Origin: Loripinus fragilis
Lineage: Eukaryota; Mollusca; Bivalvia; Lucinida; Lucinidae
DNA length: 64,000 bases
Direction of reading: 5' to 3'
NCBI GenBank assembly: GCA_964019695.1
Contig: OZ026526.1
Location: forward strand, 10,633,754 to 10,697,753
Below, in pieces: positions 4,745 to 57,786 of this stretch (its first letter is position 1; the number at the start of each line of letters is the position of its first letter). The notes below the pieces were generated by a model. It was not told where the DNA came from. It did not search any database and saw only the letters and a program-made list of their open reading frames with translations. The translations under genes and the position numbers were made by a program.

Positions 4745-4918
4745 TTAACCCTAAAAGCGTCAAGAAAAAAAATGCATCTGAAAATGTCATCTGCTGAATT
4801 CCTCTGCTGCAAATGATTGCCAAACATTACTGACGAATTGAGTATAAAAGCAAACAGCAAGGACCCAGAACAGATAGTCTGATCTGGGTCCACACTGTTT
4901 GCCATAGAGGCTTCTTAA
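4745..4918 (+). mobile_element. left half of a split TTAA-flanked miniature element (M3)
   Basis: Begins TTAACCCTAAAAGCGTCAAG and is colinear with the intact 248-bp copy at 45001-45248, through the hairpin GGACCCAGAACAG...CTGATCTGGGTCC to CATAGAGGCTTCTTAA. It stops exactly at a TTAA that lies inside the intact copy. The missing right half (ACATTTCAGCAGAC onward) is found 6.7 kb away at 11604-11652. TTAA duplications and CCC-type ends suggest the piggyBac superfamily. Confidence 0.85.
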
Positions 4919-5049
4919 CCCTCTAGTGCCCAAACCCCTTTTTAGTGGTGGGAAAAATATTATTTGAAAGTATTTGGTTCCTGTCATGAATAAAACCACA
5001 AAATCGTATTTGTTTTGATAATTTATGTCGCGGATATTATTTTATAGCA

Positions 5050-5103
5050 TGTATCATATATGATACATTGGGCATTAAGTTGTAATGTATCATATATGAT
5101 ACA
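5050..5103. repeat. paired 18-bp palindromes, left arm
   Basis: TGTATCATATATGATACA occurs at 5050-5067 and 5086-5103. Three perfect copies lie in the opposite arm of the large element, at 11183-11200, 11218-11235 and 11571-11588, with a near copy at about 10988. I saw it only in the two arms. Its subterminal placement fits transposase-binding repeats, but no binding protein is known here. Confidence 0.8.
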
Positions 5104-5502
5104 TACCATTATTATATGTGTTTTGCCTCAGTAATATCAAAACATTATCAAAAAATATATGCTAACTTTAAACTTAATTTTAATTCAACATTATATAGAA
5201 CAGCAGTATGATATATGTGATCGGAAGCATCGTAAAATTCTCAGTAAATCAAGAATGTCATAAAGGGCTTAGTTCACGAAGGGGTAAAATCGGCCCTGTA
5301 AAATCCTATTTTAGAAATGTATGAATATAATATAAATGACATTATTTCTACAGAAGACGATCTTCCCTCTCTTCAAGTACATACCAAACAATTTCTTGGA
5401 TGCTTCCCTAATACCGCAAAAATCCATATTATGACCCCCAGTTTCCCCAAAATGGCTGAAATTGTGGGGATTTAGTGTAAATATATCCATAACAAAACAT
5501 GA

Positions 5503-5594
5503 GGCCATTATTTCGACACCACACTTTTTGGCTTAGCTGTGCAAATTAACATTGAGAACCCATGGCCAAAAATTCAAGGTGTCGAAATTATGGC
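5503..5594. repeat. short inverted repeat
   Basis: GCCATTATTTCGACACC at the left and GGTGTCGAAATTATGGC at the right enclose about 57 bp. It may be a very small miniature element inside the 6.7-kb unit. No second copy was noticed. Confidence 0.5.
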
Positions 5595-6812
5595 TATATA
5601 ATGTAATATTATGTAACCTAAACGATCACGTTTGGATATTTTGTCTGTGTTTGGTCTTTTCAGGCCATTTATACATGTTCTAAGGCTTAAAATATACAGA
5701 TATGACTACATTATCTCATGAAAGCAGGGCTGGACTATTTTAGAAGCCGAAAATACGCCTACTTTCTCACATTTTTCAGTGCAAACAATGCCGATTCCGA
5801 AATAATGTTACGTCCGAAATTTACATTCAGTATGAGACGCTCGTCGTGCTACCGTTAGTTTTGTCTGCTTTTGCAGGTATATACTACCTTTTGTGGTTAA
5901 CGGGATGTGAATTCATTCATAAATCACTATTAGAAAAATACACGGGGTCATATTTTTACAATTAATGTGTGTCAGCTTGTTTATTTTTGTATATTTCTAA
6001 AAGCCTATTGTTGTTTTGTTCGTATTTAAAAATACATAGTTTTAAGTGCGCTGCATTTAAATATATGCAACTACGTGGTCGTGCGGTTAAATCCAGGAAT
6101 TGTCCTATGTTTTGCAACGGGTCCTGGGTTCAATCCTCAGTGACGGCAATTTTTTTCTTTCCTTTTTTTCTCTCGTTTCTCTTAAAATGCTAGTTTATAT
6201 ATTATTGCAAGCTTTGAGGTTTATCTGATAGCTGAAAACAAATAACCACATGTACTGGTCGTTTTATTTCAGAAATCTTCCACTGTCCAGTATATACTTA
6301 CGCCAAGCATATTTGACATGCCTTCATTGTATTCCATAAACTCACTAAAAATGTAACTTTGGTTCCAAAGGGGGTCCAACATTTTCCAGGGGTGGGGGTC
6401 GAACTCAATTGCTTATTCCCTATAGAACTTGTGATTTTCAAGGTGAGTCCAGGCCACCTGTTACTCCCACCTCCTCTCCGGGCCCGTGCATGACTGATCC
6501 TTCACAAAATGATCGTGTTTCATGTCTTAATCATGAGTTAAGTTTAGTTTGTATTGCACTGATTTTCCTATAGCAAAAATAACTTATTCGACCACCAAAA
6601 TGCATGCGTTTCTTTAGAAATGTGACACAGTTGGAGACCGTTTTGAAAGAAAAATCGCATTGGGCATTCGCGACGAGGTGATAGCTCTACTATATTTATG
6701 TCCCTCATTGTCCCCGTGTACCCCATGTGTAACCTGCGTGTAGTGTTAAGAACTGGGGATTTTTTGGTCAATAATCGGCAATGACGCATGTTTCACATAC
6801 GTTCGGCAAGAC
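5595..6812. other. no gene; weak tRNA-like head
   Basis: AT-rich. 6068-6150 reads GTGGTCGTGCGGTTAAATCC then GGGTTCAATCCTC followed by T-rich text. This resembles the A and B boxes of a tRNA-derived SINE head, but no tail or duplication is visible. The remainder is unremarkable. Confidence 0.35.
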
Positions 6813-7015
6813 AGTGAGTGCAGTGGCTCAATGGTAGAGTGCTTGACTCGAGACCGAGGGGCCGCGGGTTCGAGCCTCACCGGTGTCACTGCGTTGTGTT
6901 CCTTGAGCAAGACACATTTATCCTAGCTGAGTACTGGTTCAACCAGGAAGACCCGTCCCTGTTTAACTGAAAGATTGTTGATGGGACATAAAAAATCAAA
7001 TCAAACAAACAAACA
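6813..7015 (+). mobile_element. tRNA-derived SINE (S1), near full length, with target duplication
   Basis: The best-preserved copy of the main SINE here. Pol III boxes are visible: A box TGGCTCAATGG at 6824-6834 and B box GGTTCGAGCC at 6867-6876. The body carries GAGCAAGACACATTTATCC and GACCCGTCCCT, and the tail ends GATGGGACATAAAAAATCAA then (CAAA)n. An 11-bp duplication TTCGGCAAGAC flanks it at 6802-6812 and 7016-7026, so it inserted by retrotransposition fairly recently. Other copies lie near 8556, 12363, 12853, 18323, 23104, 24952 and 34098. It lies inside the 6.7-kb TTAA element and is therefore younger than it. Confidence 0.93.
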
Positions 7016-7026
7016 TTCGGCAAGAC

Positions 7027-8032
7027 GTACAGTTGATTCAAAGATAGATGAGAATCGTTGTAAACAAAAATATGAACTAATCCAGGTAATGTGTATTTTA
7101 TACAGGTATATTACATTAACTGCCTCAAACTGCAGTATTTCATTGACCGTTATTAACCCGTTTCAATGGAAAAAATACAATGTGGTATAGTCTGATTATT
7201 TTGCATCTTTGAAACATCAGTACGAGCAATCTGTGGGGTGAACGGAAGTCACACTTGTATTTGCATGGGGAGAATAAAGGAAGGCGATATAATTTAGGAT
7301 TTATCATGATTTCAGGAGTCAGGTACATCGTTTTGAAAAAAAAGATCCATGTATAATTTAGAAGTTTGTATTATACTAACAATTAAACTCCAACTGAAAT
7401 GTTTTAGACCTGTTTTTGCGATGATTTTTACCACATCATTTTTTTGAAATCCTTATCCCGATGAAAAGTATTCAGAAACATCCATGCCAACTTCTCAAAA
7501 CAGTTCCAACATCCAAGATGATGATGCATAGATGCACTCTGAGTATTTTAAGCAAAGCACAAATATAACAAGTCAAAGATGTCAATCAAAATGTTACATT
7601 GTACCGCCACAATTCACCTGTTAAAGCGATGTATTATATGGCTTGTTCAAATATATTGGAAATCGCGCCTGATTCGCACGTGCGTTAAGCTAGTGGGGAT
7701 TCGCACGTGCGTTAAGCTAGTGGGATCATCTCGGTACCGTAAATTTTAGAACAACTGCAAAGGAAAATGGCACGTTGTGCACAAACCCAAACTTTGTTCG
7801 TACAAATGAGCCTATCTGACGTTGATTCTGTGTGTGCACTGAAAATTCTGGGCATGCAAATGGCAGTTTTATCACTTTCTACACAACCTTTGAATAACAG
7901 GATTTTCATCGTTCACGATTATTTTTTGATAATACCTCTTTCTGACACGCCCATACGAATTTTACCCGTCAATAAAACATAAAACTTTGAAATGTTAAAC
8001 GAACTCAATTAATTGCATTTTTTTATCTAAAT
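7027..8032. other. intergenic, with one 27-bp tandem duplication
   Basis: 7671-7724 is two nearly identical copies of a 27-bp unit (GATTCGCACGTGCGTTAAGC then TAGTGGG). Each holds a GCACGTGC palindrome with a CACGTG E-box core. Nothing else was recognised. An open frame at 7767-7982 shows no domain. Confidence 0.45.
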
Positions 8033-8365
8033 ACAGTTGAATCTCGTTAATTCGAAGTCCTAGGGGCTAGAGGTTTATTTCGAATTATCGAAAATTCGAA
8101 TTATAGGTAGGTAGAAATAAAAAAATATATAGCCCCCAGAAATTATAATGATTTTTTTTTCTTATCAAATATATGTTTTGTGTGCATAAAAGAAACGCCT
8201 AAGGGAGAAGTTCCTTTTACTCACCCAGAACATATATTATTATAGAAAGTTATCAAAATAGATCATGAATAGGTCCTATACTCTGAATTCAGTCTGTCCC
8301 AAATTTATTTCGAATTAGCCAGTATTTCGAAAAATCGGAGCTCGAATTTTTGAGGTTTTACTGTA
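8033..8365. mobile_element. mariner-like miniature element (M4)
   Basis: The left end is TACAGTTGAATCTCGTTAAT and the right end is TTGAGGTTTTACTGTA, both TA-bounded. TTCGAATTA motifs recur inside each end. ACAGTNGAACCTCGTTAATTCGAA-type ends are widespread in Tc1/mariner-derived elements of invertebrates. The interior is non-coding. Confidence 0.75.
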
Positions 8366-8555
8366 CACAAAATCTGTTCATGTAACAAACACCAGACCTT
8401 TAGGAGAAATTGGCAGAAAGTCTTCTCTACAGCTTTATCGTTAACACATTTTGCTAAATTGAAGATAAAAACGTTATTGCGAAAGAATAGCAGCTGGATT
8501 TTTTTTTCATGTCGTATAATAACTTATTTTCAGGATTGAGTAATTGAGATTTACT

Positions 8556-8735
8556 GTCGTGGTAGAGTGCTTGACACGAGACCGAGTGTCCGTGGGTTCA
8601 AGCCTCACCGGCGCTACAGCGTTGTGCCTTGAGCAAGACACATTAATCCTAGCTTAGTAATGGTTTTACCCAGTATGACCCCGTCCCTACATAATTGAAA
8701 GTTTGTTGATATGACTCATGGCAAACATCACTATT
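8556..8735 (+). mobile_element. tRNA-derived SINE (S1), decayed
   Basis: GTGGTAGAGTGCTTGACACG, GGGTTCAAGCCTCACCGG, CCTTGAGCAAGACACATTAA and GACCCCGTCCCT follow the order of the copy at 6813. The head is clipped and the tail has lost its CAAA repeat. Confidence 0.85.
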
Positions 8736-9085
8736 TAATTCCGTCCATCAAAAATGTTCGTTTCGTGTAAATGCTTAGTGTAAGTCCCATTATCACATTT
8801 TGACAAGCCTGCCCCACTTTAGCGAGGCGGGGAGAATCAAAAATAGCAGCTTACCATCGGCCCAGCAATATGCAATTACCTTTTGCCGTTTGCCGATAGT
8901 GGTTAGCTTTAACGTTCTTTCTGGAACTTTATCAAAAACGAAATGCCCGTGAAACTTCTACGCTGTCTTTAATTTGAGCGGGCAGTATCAGGGAAGGTTC
9001 TGGCTAGTCTGTTCGAATGCTCAATCTACTTTGCACTTGCGCTGGTCGCCAATGATAAAAAAACATAAACATCTTCTGAGCTGGC
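8736..9085. other. unique-looking sequence, no gene
   Basis: Slightly richer in CG dinucleotides than its surroundings and without any recognised repeat. No convincing frame on either strand. Confidence 0.35.
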
Positions 9086-9330
9086 TTAACCCTTAATGCG
9101 CCAATCGCAACAAAAGTCGTCTGCTTTCTCGTCTGCTGAAATGTTTAAGAAGCCTCTATGGAAAACAGTGTGGACCCAGATAAGACTGCTCCTATAGGAG
9201 CACTCTGTTCTGGGTCCACACTGTTTGCTTCTATACTAAATTCGTCAGTAATGCTAGAAATTATTTGCAGCAGATGACTTCAGCAGACGACATTTTCAGA
9301 TGCATTTTTTTCTTGGCGCTTTAAGGGTAA
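9086..9330 (-). mobile_element. TTAA-flanked miniature element (M3), inverted copy
   Basis: Starts TTAACCCTTAATGCGCCAAT and ends TTGGCGCTTTAAGGGTAA. Read on the minus strand it is colinear with 45001-45248. The central hairpin (GGACCCAGATAAGACTGCTC and its inverse) is at about 9161-9227. The right TTAA has mutated to GTAA. Confidence 0.85.
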
Positions 9331-9385
9331 AATATTACAGCATCACTCTACAATAAGTTACCGCGTCCGGGAAACCCAACTATAT

Positions 9386-9387
<2 letters not shown>

Positions 9388-9424
<37 letters not shown>
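9388..9424. repeat. (TA)n microsatellite
   Basis: An uninterrupted TA dinucleotide run of about 37 bp. Confidence 0.95.
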
Positions 9425-9427
<3 letters not shown>

Positions 9428-9644
9428 CACGGGTATTTAAGATCAGTCAGAATGACAAGCTCCTGCCTGAAAATCACGAGACTACCGAAAAATGACCACT
9501 CTGCATTCAATTGCATAAAATGCGTTACGATTGTGTTATCTATTGTGTGCATACAGTTGTAATACACTTTTTCTCGGACCCGCGAAGCGTGGTCGGCAGA
9601 GTTCTATTTATAGTCTGACTTCTATGGACTAGTCTTGAGGGTGG

Positions 9645-9646
<2 letters not shown>

Positions 9647-9697
<51 letters not shown>
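9647..9697. repeat. poly-G tract of 51 bases
   Basis: 51 consecutive G residues preceded by GGTGGCC. The sequence just after it (GAAATTATTTTCTCTC, AGTAAGTACTTGATA) resembles the body of the second SINE family (51846-52146), so the tract may lie within or beside a SINE remnant. Runs this long are often mis-sized by sequencing. Confidence 0.9.
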
Positions 9698-9699
<2 letters not shown>

Positions 9700-10206
9700 C
9701 ATGAGTCTTGAGTTTGAACCCTTGTACAATTTTGGTGAAATTATTTTCTCTCTTCTACTGATTCTGATGAGAGTATTTAGTAAGTACTTGATACTGATAC
9801 ACCGTTTGTAAAGCAGCGGTATAGGATACATTGACCGCTACCGTGATATGACTAAAATTGATGAAAATTACATGGACATCAAGCCTCAAACAAACATGCT
9901 CATTTCAGATGGTTGGCGGGCGTATCGCCATGATAGACTGTTTATCGAGGTTTATAATACATTTTGGCACAAATTTGGATGCAATACACACTTGTTTAAC
10001 AAAAATTTGTTAACCAAACTTAGCGATGTCTTTGGCGTTACATTGCAATGTAAATGACGTTACTTTTTGCGCAAAATTAACAGAGGGTCCTTGTCTTTAG
10101 AAACCCATAGTTTTCACAATTTAAGCACTAGGCAGATAAAATTTCGATTTTTCTCAATGAAATAAACCATTTAAACATATTTTAAGTCAGTATGCATTTC
10201 TATGGC
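9698..10206. other. no gene seen
   Basis: SINE-like residue up to about 9800, then AT-rich DNA. A 69-codon frame at 9848-10057 has no recognisable motif. Confidence 0.35.
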
Positions 10207-11603
10207 AGGGCCGATTTCACCCCTTCGTGAACCTAGCCCTTTAATACAGTTTTGCTTATATTAGATAAATATTGGGCATAAAGCAATGTAATCTTATTCA
10301 AAAGACAAATATTAGTCAAAGAGCATTTCAGACTTTAAAAAATAACTAGTAACAAGGAAGATATGGGTAGAAAACATAACCCAAGATGCCTAGTGACCAC
10401 CACCCCCACCATATGGGCTAAACATGAGGTAAAAATGTAATTTTAAGACATAGGATGTGGCATTTGATTATTGTCTACATATTCTCTTATGCTTATTTAC
10501 TGGGAAAATCATTAGTTATGTAGAATTTACATTCTAAAATATTTTATCGTCATATATACGGCTTAGAAGAACAACATTGACGCCAATCGGATAAAAAAAG
10601 AGCACTTGATCAAGCCTGAGGTCTACAATGCTTACTAATTAACATCTTAATAAAACAGCACATATGGCATGCTTCGGAGCAGTATCAACCTTATTTGTGT
10701 ATAGATGAACATTAAATTCCAAACACTTCATAAATAAGAATGCAAAGTTACTACTAAATAAATATAACGGGAGTTTGCGGTATCTGACGGTTCCCAAGTC
10801 CCACACAAAAAGGTAATCTACAAACCAAGTCATCAAATGATTGTTTTGTTTTATTCAAAACTCATCTAAGAAGCTCAAATCACTTTCTACATCACACAAA
10901 AGCTATCTAATAGCTCACGTTGTTCAAATAAGCTGATGTATATTATCCATTCCAAAATAAATTGATGCCATTCCTGAAATGCCCATTGTAGCATATATGA
11001 TACATAATTAAATATTGGCAAATGTGTGTTAGAATGTAAATATATATGGATAATACTGCTTTATATATTTTCTATAGGCATGTTTAAAGAGTATTAGGTA
11101 GTTATTTAATCATAATTTGTGAAACAATTGAGACAAGTTATGAAATTAAATGCGGTTAATACATGTTTTACTTGTTACCCAATGTATCATATATGATACA
11201 GAAAAATTAATGCCCGGTGTATCATATATGATACACCAAACTTTATGCACAATATCTGAAAATATCACAATAAGAAAATGACCGATTTTTATAAGGTTTT
11301 AGTCTTTAAGGTTTAATAAGTATTTCTACATTATTTTTGTACAATATATACAGCATGTTTATGTCTTTTTAGCCAAAGGTCATGACCTCTAATACTGACA
11401 ACGAGGTGTTAATGAAGGCGGCCATTTTTAAAGGAAGATGGAGGTCAACTGAAACATAACAAAGCTGAAAACAAAACCTTTCCATGAATACTGTAACATT
11501 TATTAATAGATACATAGGGAAATATATAAAATTAAACTCAATTTAGAATATTATGGCTTTGTAAAATCAATGTATCATATATGATACACTGGGCACTAGA
11601 GGG
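10207..11603 (-). repeat. right inverted arm of the 6.7-kb TTAA element
   Basis: Read on the minus strand it starts CCCTCTAGTGCCCA, carries TGTATCATATATGATACA three times, and ends with TTCACGAAGGGGT...AATCGGCCCTG, the same landmarks as 4919-5300. It is about 1 kb longer than the left arm, so one arm has been deleted or the other expanded. Confidence 0.7.
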
Positions 11604-11652
11604 TTAAACATTTCAGCAGACAAGAAAAGCAGATGACTTTTGTTGCGATTGG
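11604..11652 (+). mobile_element. right half of the split TTAA miniature element (M3)
   Basis: TTAAACATTTCAGCAGACAA then AAAGCAGATGACTTTTGTTG matches the right part of 45001-45248 immediately after the internal TTAA. The terminal GGTGCTTTAAGGGTTAA is absent, so the far end has decayed or been deleted. Confidence 0.85.
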
Positions 11653-12030
11653 CTCATTCAGAGCTGACAGTTATAACCCATGTCCGGCTGAATAAATTAA
11701 CATGGCATTCCAACCAGTTCAGCTCTGTGATTTCAATTAACCCATTTCTGCTGATTGGAATTTCCCTCTCTTATCAGTTGGGCCTGTCCATTTCCCTTGT
11801 AAGGGTTGTTGGGTGGAAATTTTCACTTTTATTCAATTCTGTAAGCAAACAGTGGAGAACCTGGTCAGATGCCAAGTTGTGCGGCGTCTGAGCTGGATCT
11901 GCACTGTTTGCCTATGTCCCACAAAAAGGACGCTAGGCTTATATGGGTCTAACTCTTAGAGGTTGCATATTGAATACTTTCAGTGCAGGCTTTGTCAGAA
12001 GATCCACACTGTTCTCTAAGGAATCTCCTG
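11653..12030. other. no gene seen
   Basis: Contains fragments resembling the shared hairpin core (GCTGGATCTGCACTGTTTGC near 11890 and GATCCACACTGTTCTC near 12001). An 83-codon frame at 11640-11891 partly overlaps the split element and is not a gene. Confidence 0.4.
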
Positions 12031-14455: not shown

Positions 14456-16445
14456 TGAGGCAGATATGTGATGAGAGGCTGGGCGGGAGATCTGTCATGT
14501 CACAGGTTAAGTAAATGAATATCTGTCATGTAAGGGTGGGAGGAAGATCTGTGATGACAGGTTGTTTGGGAGATGTCATGACAGGTTGTGTGCAAGATTT
14601 GTGATGACTGGTTGAGTGGGAGAGCCATGATGACAGGTTGGGTGGGAGATCTGTCATTACAGGGTGAGAGGATGATATGTAATAACAGGGTGGGAAATGG
14701 ATCTGTGATGACAGGTTGAATGGGAATTCTATGATGGCAGGGTAAGTGGGAGATATGTGATGACAGGGTGAGTGGGAGATGTGTGATGTCAGGTTGAATG
14801 GGAGATCTGTGATGACAGGTTGAATGGGAGATATGTGATGACAGGTTGAATGGGAGATATGTGATGACAGGTTGAATGGGAGATATGTGATGACAGGTTG
14901 AATGGGAGATATGTGATGACAGGGTGAATGGGAGATATGTGATGACAGGGTGAATTGGAGATATGTGATGACAGGTTGAATGGGAGATATGTGATGACGG
15001 GTTGAATGGTAGATATGTGATGGTAGAGTATGTGGGAGATATGTGATGACAGGTTGAATGGGAGATCTATGATGGTAGAGTGAGTGGGAGATGTGTGATG
15101 ACAGGTTGAATGGGAGATCTGTGATGACAGGTTGAATGGGAGATATGTGATGACAGGTTGAATGGGAGATATGTGATGACAGGTTGAATGGGAGATATGT
15201 GATGACAGGTTGAATGGGAGATATGTGATGACAGGGTGAATGGGAGATATGTGATGACAGGGTGAATGGGAGATATGTGATGACAGGTTGAATGGGAGAT
15301 ATGTGATGACAGGTTGAATGGGAGATATGTGATGACAGGTTGAATGGGAGATATGTGATGACAGGTTGAATGGGAGATATGTGATGACAGGTTGAATGGG
15401 AGATATGTGATGACAGGGTGAATGGGAGATATGTGATGACAGGGTGAATTGGAGATATGTGATGACAGGTTGAATGGGAGATATGTGATGACGGGTTGAA
15501 TGGTAGATATGTGATGGTAGAGTATGTGGGAGATATGTGATGACAGGTTGAATGGGAGATCTATGATGGTAGAGTGAGTGGGAGATGTGTGATGACAGGT
15601 TGAATGGGAGATCTGTGATGACAGGTTGAATGGGAGATGTGTAATGACAGGTTGAGTAGGAGATCTGTGATGACATGTTGAATGTGAGATATGTGATAAC
15701 ATGGTGAATGGGAGATCTGTGATGACAGGGTGAATGAGAGATCTATGACGGCAAGGTGAATAAGAGATATGTGATGACAGGTCGAATGGGAGGTATGAGA
15801 TGGTAGGGTGAGTGTGAGATCTGTGATGTCAGGTTGAGTAGGAGATCTGTGATGACAGGTTGAGAGGGAGATCTGTGATGACAGGTTGAATGTGAGATAT
15901 GCGATGGTAGAGTAAGTTGGAGATATGTGATGACAGGTTGAATCGGAGATCTATGATGGTAGAGTGAGTGGGAGATCTGTGATGACAGGTTTAATCTGAG
16001 ATATGTGATGAAAGGGTGAGTGGGAGATCTGTGATGTCAGGTTGAGTAGGAGATCTGTGATGACAGGTTGAGTGGGAGAACTATGATGACAGATTGAGTT
16101 GGAGATCTGTGATGTCAGGTTGAGTAGGAGATCTGTGATGTCAGGTTGAGTGGGGATCTGTGATGGCAGGGTGAGTGGGAGATATGTAATGACAGGGTGA
16201 GTGGGGATCTGTGATGGAAGGGTGAGTGGGAGATATGTAATGACAGGGTGAGTGGGGATCTGTGATGGCAGGGTGAGTGGGAGATATGTAATGACAGGGT
16301 GAGTGGGGATCTGTGATGGAAGGGTGAGTGGGAGATATGTAATGACAGGGTGAGTGGAAGATCTGTGATGGAAGGGTGAGTGGGAGATCTATGTTGGCAG
16401 GGTGAGCGAGATATCGGTGATGGCATAGTGGGTGGGAGATATGAA
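14456..16445. repeat. 26-bp minisatellite, segment 1
   Basis: Consensus unit GGGAGATATGTGATGACAGG plus TTGAAT, 26 bp. Because 26 is not a multiple of three and the unit has few stops on the minus strand, long spurious frames arise there (14789-15676 and 15067-15702). A higher-order repeat is visible: the variant phrase GATGACGGGTTGAATGGTAG recurs 494 bp apart (14993 and 15487), which is 19 units. Near 16190-16390 the array shifts to a 51-bp dimer (25+26) with alternating GGAAG and GGCAG. Confidence 0.95.
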
Positions 16446-18084
16446 ACTAGAGGACCTGAAGGTCCTGAGGCGCTCACCTGATCTCCTTAATAATGTTAAA
16501 ATAGGTCAAGGTCAACTACAGCTTATAATGGAACAAATTTTGTTTTACCATATATGGGGGTTGCAGACATTTTGGTCAAGTGACTTAAACAATCTAATTA
16601 ATAATCCATCAAACCGTCCAGTGATTACTGAGAAACAGATGTTTAGATAGGTGTGTGGCAGTCTAAATGAGTGGCCTTGGATAAAAGGTCACAGGTCAGC
16701 TTGACATTTGTTACTTAATACAGGATTTTTCCCAAATAAATGCATAAGGAATCAAATTTGACCTTGCCATAAAGTACGTCAAGGTCAACGTAGATTAGTC
16801 ATTTGTGCAAATCTGGTAGGGCCCACATCCCCAATGCTACATACCAAGTCCCAAGGCCATTGGCCTTTTGGTACCAGAGAAGAAGACATTTGAAGGGTTT
16901 TAACCATATATGGGCGTGATGGCCATCTTGGTCATGCGACCAGTACAATTGGTATAAATTTTGGCTAACTTATCGTAAGGAGTCTTCATATGAAATTCGA
17001 GTTCAAATGACCTAGTGGTTTCTGAGGAAACTATGTTTGATGTGTTGATGGGACTCCAATATGAGCGACCTTGGCTGAAAAGTAAAAGGTCAACCTTGTC
17101 CTTTGAAACTTATTTATAGCCATTGTCTCATTTGGTTTAACATATCAAGTGAGAATAATGACTTTGGTCTCAACAGTTTTCAAAAAATTAAATTTTCAAA
17201 AAAAATCCCATTTAAATGCATTAGGAAGCAAATTTGACCTTGACGTTAAGTAGGTCAAGGTCAACATAGGTTCATCATTTGAACAAACTTGGTAGGCCCC
17301 ACATCCCCAATGCTACATACCAAGTCCCAAGGTCATGGGCCTTCTGGTTCTGGAGAAGAAGATTATTAAATGGTTTTAACCATATATGGGCATGGCGGTC
17401 ATCTTGGTCATGTGACCAAAATATTTTGCATAAATTTTAGTTAACTTATCATAAGGAGTCTTCTTCTGAAATTTGAGTTCAATTTGGCCAATGGTTTGTG
17501 AGAAAACTATGTTTTAATATATTGATGGGACTCTTATATGAGCCACCTAAGCTGAAAGGTCAAAGGTCAACCTTGACCTTTGAAACTTATTTATAGCCAT
17601 TGTCTCATTAGGTTAAACATATCATGTGAGAATAATGACTAAAGCTTCCAAAGTTTTCAAAAAAATCAACTTTTCAGAAATTTTCCCATTTAAATGCATT
17701 AGAAAACAAATTTGACCTTGACGTTAAGTAGGTCAAGGTCAACCTAGGATCATCATTTGAACAAACTTGGTAGGCCCCACAACCCCAATGCTACATACCA
17801 AGCCCCAAGGTCATCAGCCTCCTGGTTCTGGAGAAGAAGATTTTTTAAGGGTTTTTACCATATATGGGCATGGCGGCCATCTTGGTCATGTGACCAAGAC
17901 CATTTGAACAAACTTTCGTTCCCCCATCCTAAGGAGTCTCTATATGAAATATGAGTTCAATTAGCCCAGTAGTTTCAGAGAAGAAGATGTTTGAAAATGT
18001 TGACGGACGACAGATGACGGACGGACGCCGGAGTCACTGGTATACTATTAGCTCACCAATGAGCCTTCGGCTCAGGTGAGCTAA
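16446..18084 (+). mobile_element. 1.64-kb tandem-module element (R3), copy 1, inside the minisatellite
   Basis: Starts ACTAGAGGACCTGAAGGTCC, contains a small palindrome (AGGACC TGAA GGTCCT) and GCGCTCACCTGATC. It then carries about three diverged modules of roughly 460 bp, each with TAGGTCAAGGTCAAC, GGCCATCTTGGTCATG, TACCATATATGGGC and TCAACCTTGACC. The 3' end is a GACGGACG run, GCCGGAGTCACTGGTATACT, then the nested hairpin AGCTCACCAATGAGCC/GGCTCAGGTGAGCT and CTAA. Minisatellite sequence resumes on both sides, so the element is an insertion. No ORF is conserved. A hairpin followed by CTAA recalls a Helitron 3' end, but the 5' end lacks the expected TC, so I leave the class open. Confidence 0.85.
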
Positions 18085-44814: not shown

Positions 44815-45300
44815 ATGGGTGAAAGTTTTCAGGATTATTCCTGAATTCAGGATTTTGAGGCTGACTTTCCATAGAAAGTCAGCCTCAAAATGCTGAATTA
44901 GGGAGATTATAATAGATTCTCTGATTTATATTCAGTCTGTCTAAAGACAATTGACCATTAAACTTCAAATTGTGAGTGTTTAGTGGGCATACAACAAGTT
45001 TTAACCCTTAAAGCGCCAAGCAAAAAATGTATCTGAAAATGTTGTCTGCTGAAGTCGTCTGCTGCAAATAATTGCCTTACATTACCAATGAATAAAGTAT
45101 AGAAGCAAACAGTGTGGACCCAGAACGGACTGCTCCTATAGGAGCAGTCTGTTCTGGGTCCACACTGTTTGCCATAGAGGCTTCTTAAACATTTCAGCAG
45201 ACGAGAAAAGCAGACGACTTTTGTTTCAATTGGTGCTTTAAGGGTTAAGATCGGAGTTTTGAAAGTTCAGGATTTTGGAAATTTATAACTTTCACGTATG
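44815..45300 (+). mobile_element. CATGGGTGAAAG-ended element (M19), interrupted by M3
   Basis: Starts CATGGGTGAAAGTTTTCAGG, has the hairpin GAGGCTGACTTTC/GAAAGTCAGCCTC, and closes with AGTTCAGGATTTTGGAAATT...ACTTTCACGTATG. A second copy at 48373-48604 lacks the inserted 244 bp and provides the empty site (CAAGTTTTAA then AATTTGAATTTC). Confidence 0.85.
45001..45248 (+). mobile_element. TTAA-flanked miniature element (M3), intact reference copy
   Basis: TTAA at both ends (45001-45004 and 45245-45248). Inverted ends CCCTTAAAGCGCCAA and TTGGTGCTTTAAGGG. Subterminal repeats GTCGTCTGC/GCAGACGAC. The central hairpin 45105-45172 starts GCAAACAGTGTGGACCCAGA and its inverse closes it. It contains an internal TTAA in GAGGCTTCTTAAACATTTC, the site used by the 6.7-kb element in another copy. 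TTAA duplication and CCC-type ends fit piggyBac. No coding capacity. Confidence 0.92.
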
Positions 45301-56219: not shown

Positions 56220-56622
56220 GGTGGGGGACTTTCCCTACGAATCCTCTCTCGGAGAATTCGTTTTTATAAGGCACCGCCCATAAAAAATCATTGTTTGTGG
56301 CCGTGTTCCTTGGCAGTACCAGTACTGGCCGGGTGGGTTTATGTTTACGGTGGTTCTATGTCCAGGAACTCCCGAAGGCTCAACCGGCAGTGGATCTGGT
56401 TTTAAAACGACTCAGAAGACGGAAGTCTGGTTCCCTCCCCTAGATCTACCTATCTAGGGTCAGGTATCCACTATTTAATTTCAAGTAGAGAATCCTACTC
56501 ATGCGACGACTGCGCATCCTCCAGAAAATATTTTCAACATAAACTTCAGATTTTTTCAGTTGCTATAAATTGATAATTAAGTAAAAGAAAAAAAATATAA
56601 ACTCCCAGAACAAAATAAACGT
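56220..56622. other. CpG-denser unrecognised stretch
   Basis: Visibly richer in CG dinucleotides than its neighbours (CTCTCTCGGAGAATTCG, GGAACTCCCGAAGGC, ACTCATGCGACGACTGCGC). One open frame without an ATG (about 56273-56445) includes GSTSTGRVGLCLRWF and KRLRRRKSGSLP. I recognise no domain. It may be promoter-like DNA, an old exon or the 5' part of the retroelement that follows. Confidence 0.3.
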
Positions 56623-57786
56623 ATGCTTATGAGCATAACAGGCTTGATGAGACGTCTATCGTTGATAGGCATCGATGCCATATGGCAGTTAAATTTGGGT
56701 TGTTTGTTGATGAGGACCATAGCAAGCTTCCTACGTTATACTGGTTACCTGCCCTATAAATCACGTTTTATTGCTAATTCTAGTGCATGTACAATTACTG
56801 AGTTGTCTAATCTTTTGACTTCTTGCCTCACTGCGATTAAAAACCATGTCATTAAATATTGCACAACAGTTTATGAAAGAAATGGTAAAAAATTATTCTG
56901 GTCTATTAAAAATTCAGGTGAAATTCTTAATAAATTGAAGTCTAGAAGTTTTCTAGCATCTGGTTTGTTTACATATGATTTCTCTACTCTCTATACTACA
57001 TTGCCTCATAATCTAATCAAAGAAAAACTCACAGACTTAATTTGTTACGAGAGAGACTTTATGTTGTCTCTGTCAGACAATAATCAAACTGATATTATTG
57101 AAGCTTTTACACCACCTCCAGATATTTAGATGACTTGCTTATTAATATTGATAATCCTTATTTTGAGCAAATGGTAGGTCAGATATACCCCACTGAACCT
57201 CAGTTAAATAAGGCAAATTCTTCTGATACTGAAGCTCCGTTTTTGGACTTGAACTTGTCAATAACAAATGGCATAGTTTCTTCAAAAATTTAAGATTAAC
57301 GGGATGATTTTAATTTTGAAATAGCAAATTTCCCATTTCTTGATGGAGATGTTCCTCACTCTCCTTCCTATGGTGTATATATTTCTCAGCTTATTCGTTT
57401 TGCTAGAGTATTTTCTAATGTTGATGACTCCAACAACAGAAACTTATTTTTTAACTGTTTAGTTAATATAAAATGTTATATATATATCATAAAATTCGAA
57501 AAAACATTTTCTAAATTCTACTACAGACACTCAGAGTAAATTGTTAAATACAACATCGGGTTAAAACTCTTCGGCAACAAGGCATATCAGAACCTATATT
57601 TTATGGTGATTTAGTTTATAAAGTCAAACGTATTATTGGAAAACCTAATTTTAGTGATCAATTCAAAAAGATAGTAAAACGTTATATAAGCGTTGGATAT
57701 AACTTGGATATCATGCGACAGTCTGCATGCTTAGTTTTAAACCCAATCACAGTTTATAGCTTAGTTTCCTCTTTAATTGCACAACG
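56623..57786 (+). pseudogene. broken reverse transcriptase, Penelope-like or related
   Basis: The frame at 56623-57129 contains PYKSRFIANSSACTITELSN, then LLTSCLTAIKNHVIKY and TYDFSTLYTTLPHNLIKEKL, the fingers/palm part of a reverse transcriptase. I associate this type with bivalve genomes. YWLP is encoded at about 56740 in another frame, showing a small deletion. After LTDLI the text jumps to CYERDFMLSLSDNNQTDIIE, so a central block is deleted. A frameshift follows, and the catalytic YLDD box lies at 57123-57134 in the next frame, continuing as NPYFEQMVGQIYPTEPQLNK. In-frame stops occur at 57288-57296, with more frame breaks after 57450. It is a dead copy. The Penelope-like assignment rests on the TYDFSTLYTTLPH and YLDD context and is tentative. 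Confidence 0.8.

Follow-up and report, generated by a model that had tools for sequence, protein, structure and literature searches.

The window analysed here, 64 kb of the genome of the bivalve Loripinus fragilis (contig OZ026526.1), contains a 6685-bp insert at 4919–11603. The insert is bounded by 14-bp inverted ends with TTAA on each side and interrupts M3, an old TTAA miniature element, at an internal TTAA; both halves of M3 are still present around it. The locus is very probably a nest of three layers, a stack of known kinds: M3, a 1.7-kb piggyBac-like element within it (the outer element) and, inside that, a 4975-bp Spy-type element (the inner element).

A TTAA insertion inside M3

The 14-bp end CCCTCTAGTGCCCA occupies 4919–4932 and returns inverted at 11590–11603, each time adjoining TTAA. 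A search of the window for TTAACCCTCTAGTGCCCA that tolerated up to 3 mismatches gave two places, 4915–4932 on the forward strand and 11590–11607 on the reverse strand, both exact; two or more occurrences arose in 0 of 100 shuffles.

The left half of M3 (4745–4918, forward strand) ends at the target TTAA (4915–4918) and is 81.5% identical to 9331–9145 and 79.4% identical to 45001–45188. When the flanks of the insert were joined at TTAA, they matched two intact M3 copies along an unbroken alignment, at 82% over 247 columns to 9331–9092 and at 80% over 238 columns to 45001–45233, the latter continuous as an earlier note, which had proposed aligning the halves with 45001–45248, anticipated. The unbroken alignment with both copies therefore establishes insertion of a TTAA element into the internal TTAA of M3. 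The paired ends and this M3 empty site bear out the same note's suggestion of a TTAA element lying, with a TTAA duplication, inside a TTAA-flanked one. The right half (11604–11667, forward strand) begins with the second TTAA (11604–11607), again as proposed. Its end had been placed at 11652; the match stops there against the 45001–45233 copy, reaches 11661 against the 9331–9092 copy, and by eye the diverged end continues beyond the BLAST match to about 11667, with 12 of the 17 expected end bases and a mutated outer TTAA; 11652 is therefore not where M3 truly ends.

It is scarcely credible that the two halves are unrelated partial copies beside a TTAA element. The divergence of the outermost right end of M3 would suit that explanation, but M3 breaks off on the left and continues on the right at one and the same TTAA, with nothing lost or doubled beyond TTAA against two intact copies, and in M3 coordinates the halves neither overlap nor leave a gap.

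Size, palindromes and affinity of the outer element

We searched the host genome (1.99 Gb, 685 contigs) for the 18-bp end pattern at up to 2 mismatches and obtained 377 matches (191 forward, 186 reverse); the reversed control gave 18 (7 and 11). Inverted pairs were picked from the first 100 matches listed, and ten were fetched for their spacing of about 1.7 kb (L009–L017, L023). All ten align to window positions 4919–5264 and then directly to 10240–11603, without 5265–10239. They are 1699–1716 bp long and lie 2.6–3.7% from the majority consensus; the window copy, minus 5265–10239, is 1710 bp long and lies 3.0% from it. The outer element in the window accordingly has a left part of 346 bp (4919–5264, forward strand; 94.8–96.5% identical in the ten copies) and a right part of 1364 bp (10240–11603, forward strand), which carry the 14-bp ends. 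Ten of 11 relatives (L009–L017, L022), and the window, have TTAA at either end; in L023 one side is shifted. A further 1.7-kb copy, L060, came from 20 loci chosen without regard to spacing. The ten were picked by spacing and speak to canonical size, not to size distribution, a point that weighs against reading more into them; with L060 beside them, all at 1.7 kb, we therefore take 1.7 kb as the canonical size.

These copies bear directly on the earlier note, which had described a single 6.7-kb TTAA element enlarged by its own cargo and moving as a unit. One 14-bp end pair and one TTAA duplication do bound the whole 6685 bp. However, the ten copies and L060 lack the 4975 bp, the flank of the outer element appears in 0 of 20 fetched Spy-type copies, and the inner 4975 bp has its own ends and copies elsewhere. 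A 6.7-kb unit is therefore contradicted as the form of the family, and we consider it very improbable, although the composite may have made a single joint jump at this locus. Canonical copies measure about 1.70–1.72 kb, the remaining 4975 bp is a second transposon family, and the short interspersed elements (SINEs) and second M3 copy that had passed for cargo belong to that inner family. Other loci with the same ends at a comparable distance had also been expected; among the first 100 of the 377 matches listed, no other pair lies at about 6.7 kb.

One longer pair was fetched for its spacing of 8163 bp (L022). It is a further copy of the 1.7-kb element, interrupted elsewhere in its sequence by a different insert: both stretches of the 1.7-kb element are present, the left part 97.7% identical to the window, and the insert lies in the second. 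This 6.44-kb insert (about 628–7067 of L022, G000:C10:21825500-21834070) has long inverted ends made of repeated units and a target overlap of about 10 bp. We presume it to be Mutator-like or a foldback element. L022 was rejected as an autonomous copy of the outer element, since its insert has long inverted ends of its own and gave no Pfam match at E 0.001. At another locus (L016, positions 1–207), an M3-like stretch (88%) reaches up to the TTAA of a 1.7-kb copy and stops there; this copy perhaps inserted at the terminal TTAA of M3.

The outer element itself shows no sign of coding for a protein: open stretches in its consensus reach 81 codons at most. A six-frame Pfam search of 4919–11603 gave no credible match (the best, PRIMA1, had E 0.0017 and 18.6 bits, where the cut-off is 38.6), in keeping with the earlier description of a non-autonomous insert with no transposase-like frame.

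What the outer element does carry is a set of 18-bp palindromes, with six matches to TGTATCATATATGATACA in each of 11 aligned copies (the ten and the window). In the window they lie, with no strand assigned, at 5050–5067, followed by TTGGGCATTA, the inner part of the end inverted; at 5086–5103; at 10987–11004, with one mismatch and preceded by TGCCCAT; at 11183–11200, preceded by CCCAA; at 11218–11235, preceded by TAATGCCCGG; and at 11571–11588, adjoining the right 14-bp end. Several of them thus adjoin a repeat of the inner end part (TGCCCA). Four of the six are unchanged over the 11 copies, and their 6 × 18 positions hold 6 changes, against a mean of 37.9 at random positions; 0 of 20000 random position sets were as low, or 1 of 20000 with CpG columns set aside. 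Some caution is due, as the test ignores the tree of the copies, and 229 of 328 substitution variants are singletons. Moreover, nine invariant stretches of at least 18 bp exist, three of which hold a whole palindrome and five none; the ninth, at the edge of the scan, holds part of one.

The same ends occur in a separate family of about 0.5 kb (L018–L021), which has 1–3 palindromes at up to 3 mismatches and a different body. We fetched 20 of about 68 listed unpaired exact end matches: 19 belong to the 0.5-kb family, at 70–86% to L019 and some only partial or interrupted, and one (L060) to the 1.7-kb family. Falling in these two families, the 20 were dismissed as autonomous copies, no Pfam search having been run on them. 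The 0.5-kb copy L019 sits inside a SINE whose halves (101–208 and 742–842) meet at TTAA. The SINE2 of the window (below) has a single TTAA at the insertion point of L019, a second TTAA empty site. Viral contigs contained 0 stretches with the outer ends for each of 2 patterns, and the letters of the ends and of the palindrome were not found in the literature searched.

Members of the piggyBac superfamily have short inverted ends that start with CCC or CCY. CCCTCTAGTGCCCA at both ends starts in this way, although the copies were themselves found by this pattern. TTAA is the target and is duplicated, as in piggyBac, in 10 of 11 copies, in the window and at the M3 empty site. Subterminal palindromes, a further piggyBac feature, are represented by the six little-changed palindromes of each of the 11 copies, which are putative transposase sites. 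In extracts of PMC7351741, a dimer of the cysteine-rich domain of piggyBac binds a 19-bp palindromic internal repeat, and extracts of PMC11707139 give the left end of piggyBat three units of a tip motif and an imperfect palindrome. The outer element thus resembles non-autonomous members of the superfamily in its TTAA target and duplication, its CCC ends and a palindrome inward of the tip. It differs from piggyBac and piggyBat in its six 18-bp palindromes, all perfect or nearly so and distributed over both ends, in its letters, and in having no transposase of its own.

For the transposase domain PF13843, the host genome gave 20 matches among 26 candidates, and we read 5′ tips at two loci. These belong to one coding piggyBac family (L074 and L075; G000:C16 at 79.58 Mb and C4 at 86.08 Mb), one copy of which has a 706-codon open frame; a third fetched PF13843 stretch, of the same coding family, ends short of the tip. 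In favour of the assignment, the layout of the coding family is similar in other letters, TTAA-CCCCTTCACTGCC-TTA-CCCCGAGTCACGCTCGGGG, with a palindrome that is imperfect by eye. In L074 and L075 the tip is followed by two imperfect CCCCGAGT..CGGG palindromes.

Several of these observations count against a piggyBac assignment. Both transposase-bearing copies with a read 5′ tip differ from the outer element in their end letters; their palindrome is imperfect, with 7-bp arms around 5 bp by eye; no perfect palindrome of at least 14 bp occurs in the one coding-family stretch scanned; and an autonomous partner of the outer element was not found at the two PF13843 loci whose 5′ tips were read. To judge by its target, ends and palindromes, the outer element would have been moved by a piggyBac-type transposase of matching specificity, encoded elsewhere.

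An inner element between AAA and TTT

The inner element occupies 5265–10239 on the forward strand (GGGCTTAGTTCACG...CGTGAACCTAGCCC; 4975 bp), with inverted ends at 5265–5298 (forward) and 10206–10239 (reverse). It sits between AAA (5262–5264) and TTT (10240–10242) of an AAATTT. All 11 relatives (the ten and L022) have this AAATTT uninterrupted, the empty site reading GTCATAAATTTAATACAG. The filled site in the window reads GTCATAAA, then GGGCTTAG...CTAGCCC, then TTTAATACAG, and no base is duplicated.

Other members of this inner family were sought with the left 640 bp as the genome query. Of 440 candidates, 40 were scored, the window's own place included, and all are at least 96% identical to the query; 20 of the other 39 places were fetched. 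AAA precedes the element in 21 of 21 (the 20 and the window; 16 distinct flanks), and TTT follows it in 12 of 12 (the window and the 11 copies whose right end could be read; 9 distinct flanks). The left end is GGGC in all but L053 (GGTC), and TTT comes after GCCC. The query began two bases (AA) outside the inner element and favoured copies with AA on the left, which tells against the left-flank count; the TTT side and the empty sites are free of this bias. Six copies on four contigs (L034, L035, L038, L040, L041, L042) have the common flank ATAAACGTCAAA, and the distinct flanks therefore number only 16 and 9. Probably a larger repeat, or a segmental duplication, contains all six.

Empty sites of other copies agree. 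We compared the joined flanks of 11 copies with other sequence; 3 matches span the junction, none with a duplication, and 8 copies gave none. The unfilled relatives of L044 (adjacent units in a tandem array) and of L051 (L065, 84%) read GAAATTTG, that is, GAAA|TTTG, and that of L045 (L062, about 75% alike) reads ATGA|TTTT.

Seen in the window alone, the inner flanks can be read as ATAA/TTAA or TA/TA, and our first reading of the inner element was accordingly as a TTAA or TA family. The 11 of 11 empty sites, in which no duplicated base is left, led us to drop it. A Kolobok, Tc1/mariner or PIF/Harbinger element with a TTAA, TA or TWA duplication that later mutated is likewise very improbable, given the same empty sites, the AAA and TTT flanks of the fetched copies, and the three further empty sites without duplication.

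The original description of Spy is reportedly that of Han et al. 2014. The inner element has what would be expected of Spy: no target duplication, insertion between AAA and TTT, and inverted terminal repeats (GGGCTAAGTTCACG ends). Extracts of PMC4482050 and PMC11304231 give insertion within AAATTT without target duplication as the mark of Spy, and in those of PMC4482050 this preference and the missing duplication distinguish Spy from every other group of DNA transposons, which is what makes clean Spy empty sites useful. An intact Spy has one reading frame, and 4 Spy elements were counted in 4 mollusc species (extracts of PMC11304231). The inner family inserts as Spy of the PHIS superfamily does, whereas it is non-coding and carries SINE and M3 passengers.

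We would accordingly class the inner element as Spy type, PHIS superfamily. Two matters tell against this classification: it goes by target site, absence of duplication and GGGC ends and not by a transposase, and no autonomous partner was found. The six-frame Pfam search gave no PHIS/Spy DDE transposase in the window copy. For PF13359 in the host genome, 150 of 524 candidates were scored, with no systematic look for the ends of the inner element.

Passengers and the order of events

Complete copies of the inner family are 4217–5025 bp long, and in six of them no stop-to-stop frame exceeds 165 codons. Each carries other elements. SINE1 (6813–7015, forward strand) has tRNA-like A and B boxes by eye, neither ARAGORN nor Rfam reporting anything for it. 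On either side of it stands a near-perfect repeat that ends TTCGGCAAGAC. SINE2 (8550–8712, forward strand) is a shorter copy, and a second M3 copy (9086–9331, reverse strand) is one of the two empty-site references for the outer insertion. All 12 complete copies, the window included, contain both SINE2 and this M3 copy; SINE1 is whole or nearly so in 11 of 12 and halved in L052. A further miniature element at 8032–8366 (forward strand, bounds by eye), which we take to be pogo/Tigger-like, is whole or nearly so in 8 of the 12 and halved in 4. As the SINEs and the M3 copy are common to the complete copies, they were on board before these copies spread. The non-autonomous unit with cargo imagined in the earlier note thus has its match in the inner Spy-type family, not in the TTAA element. 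The MER6/SINE V domain case in extracts of PMC6887750 is similar in that a SINE stretch spread by riding on a DNA transposon; it differs in that the present SINE copies are carried within an element that is non-coding.

Positions 7493–8198 are missing, with the same edges, in 5 of the 20 fetched copies (L046, L047, L049, L051 and L052, the last four being among the twelve complete ones), and this absence marks a subfamily that arose by one deletion or insertion. Pairwise distances among complete copies are 0.6–3.6%, which suggests a fairly recent spread. Among the six closest copies, four have the same flank, and these may have multiplied as part of a larger repeat.

Elsewhere in the window, a minisatellite with a 26-bp unit repeated about 71 times spans 14545–16388, and after it a tandem repeat with a 478-bp unit (2.6 copies) spans 16727–17962. 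A 182-codon frame at 56581–57129, for which Pfam gave nothing above its cut-off, is reminiscent of Penelope-like reverse transcriptases.

In the history that we propose, the old miniature element M3 would be the first layer. The second, a 1710-bp non-autonomous piggyBac-like element, inserted at the internal TTAA of M3 and duplicated TTAA, as the empty site shows; it would have been moved by a piggyBac-type transposase made elsewhere, whose core may act on the 14-bp end and whose dimeric C-terminal domains may sit on the subterminal 18-bp palindromes. The third, the 4975-bp non-coding Spy-type element, entered the second between AAA and TTT with no duplication, as its empty sites show, before or after the second entered M3; a PHIS/Spy DDE transposase made elsewhere would have joined both strands at one target position. 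The Spy-type family had taken up its two SINEs, M3 copy and further miniature element before the compared copies spread.

We also put forward, tentatively and at slightly less than even chances, a broader proposition in two joined parts: that a large non-coding Spy carrier spread SINE and miniature passengers through hundreds of loci without duplication, and that the 1.7-kb and 0.5-kb families share one piggyBac transposase binding a tip motif and an 18-bp palindrome, up to six times per element.

In other respects this is ordinary transposon nesting, and it carries a warning that a clean-ended 6.7-kb stretch need not be one element. The single locus preserves base-exact natural records of two target rules, one in which TTAA is duplicated and one in which AAATTT is split and nothing is duplicated. 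The palindromes, common to two families with different bodies, are a candidate binding site for a piggyBac-type transposase.

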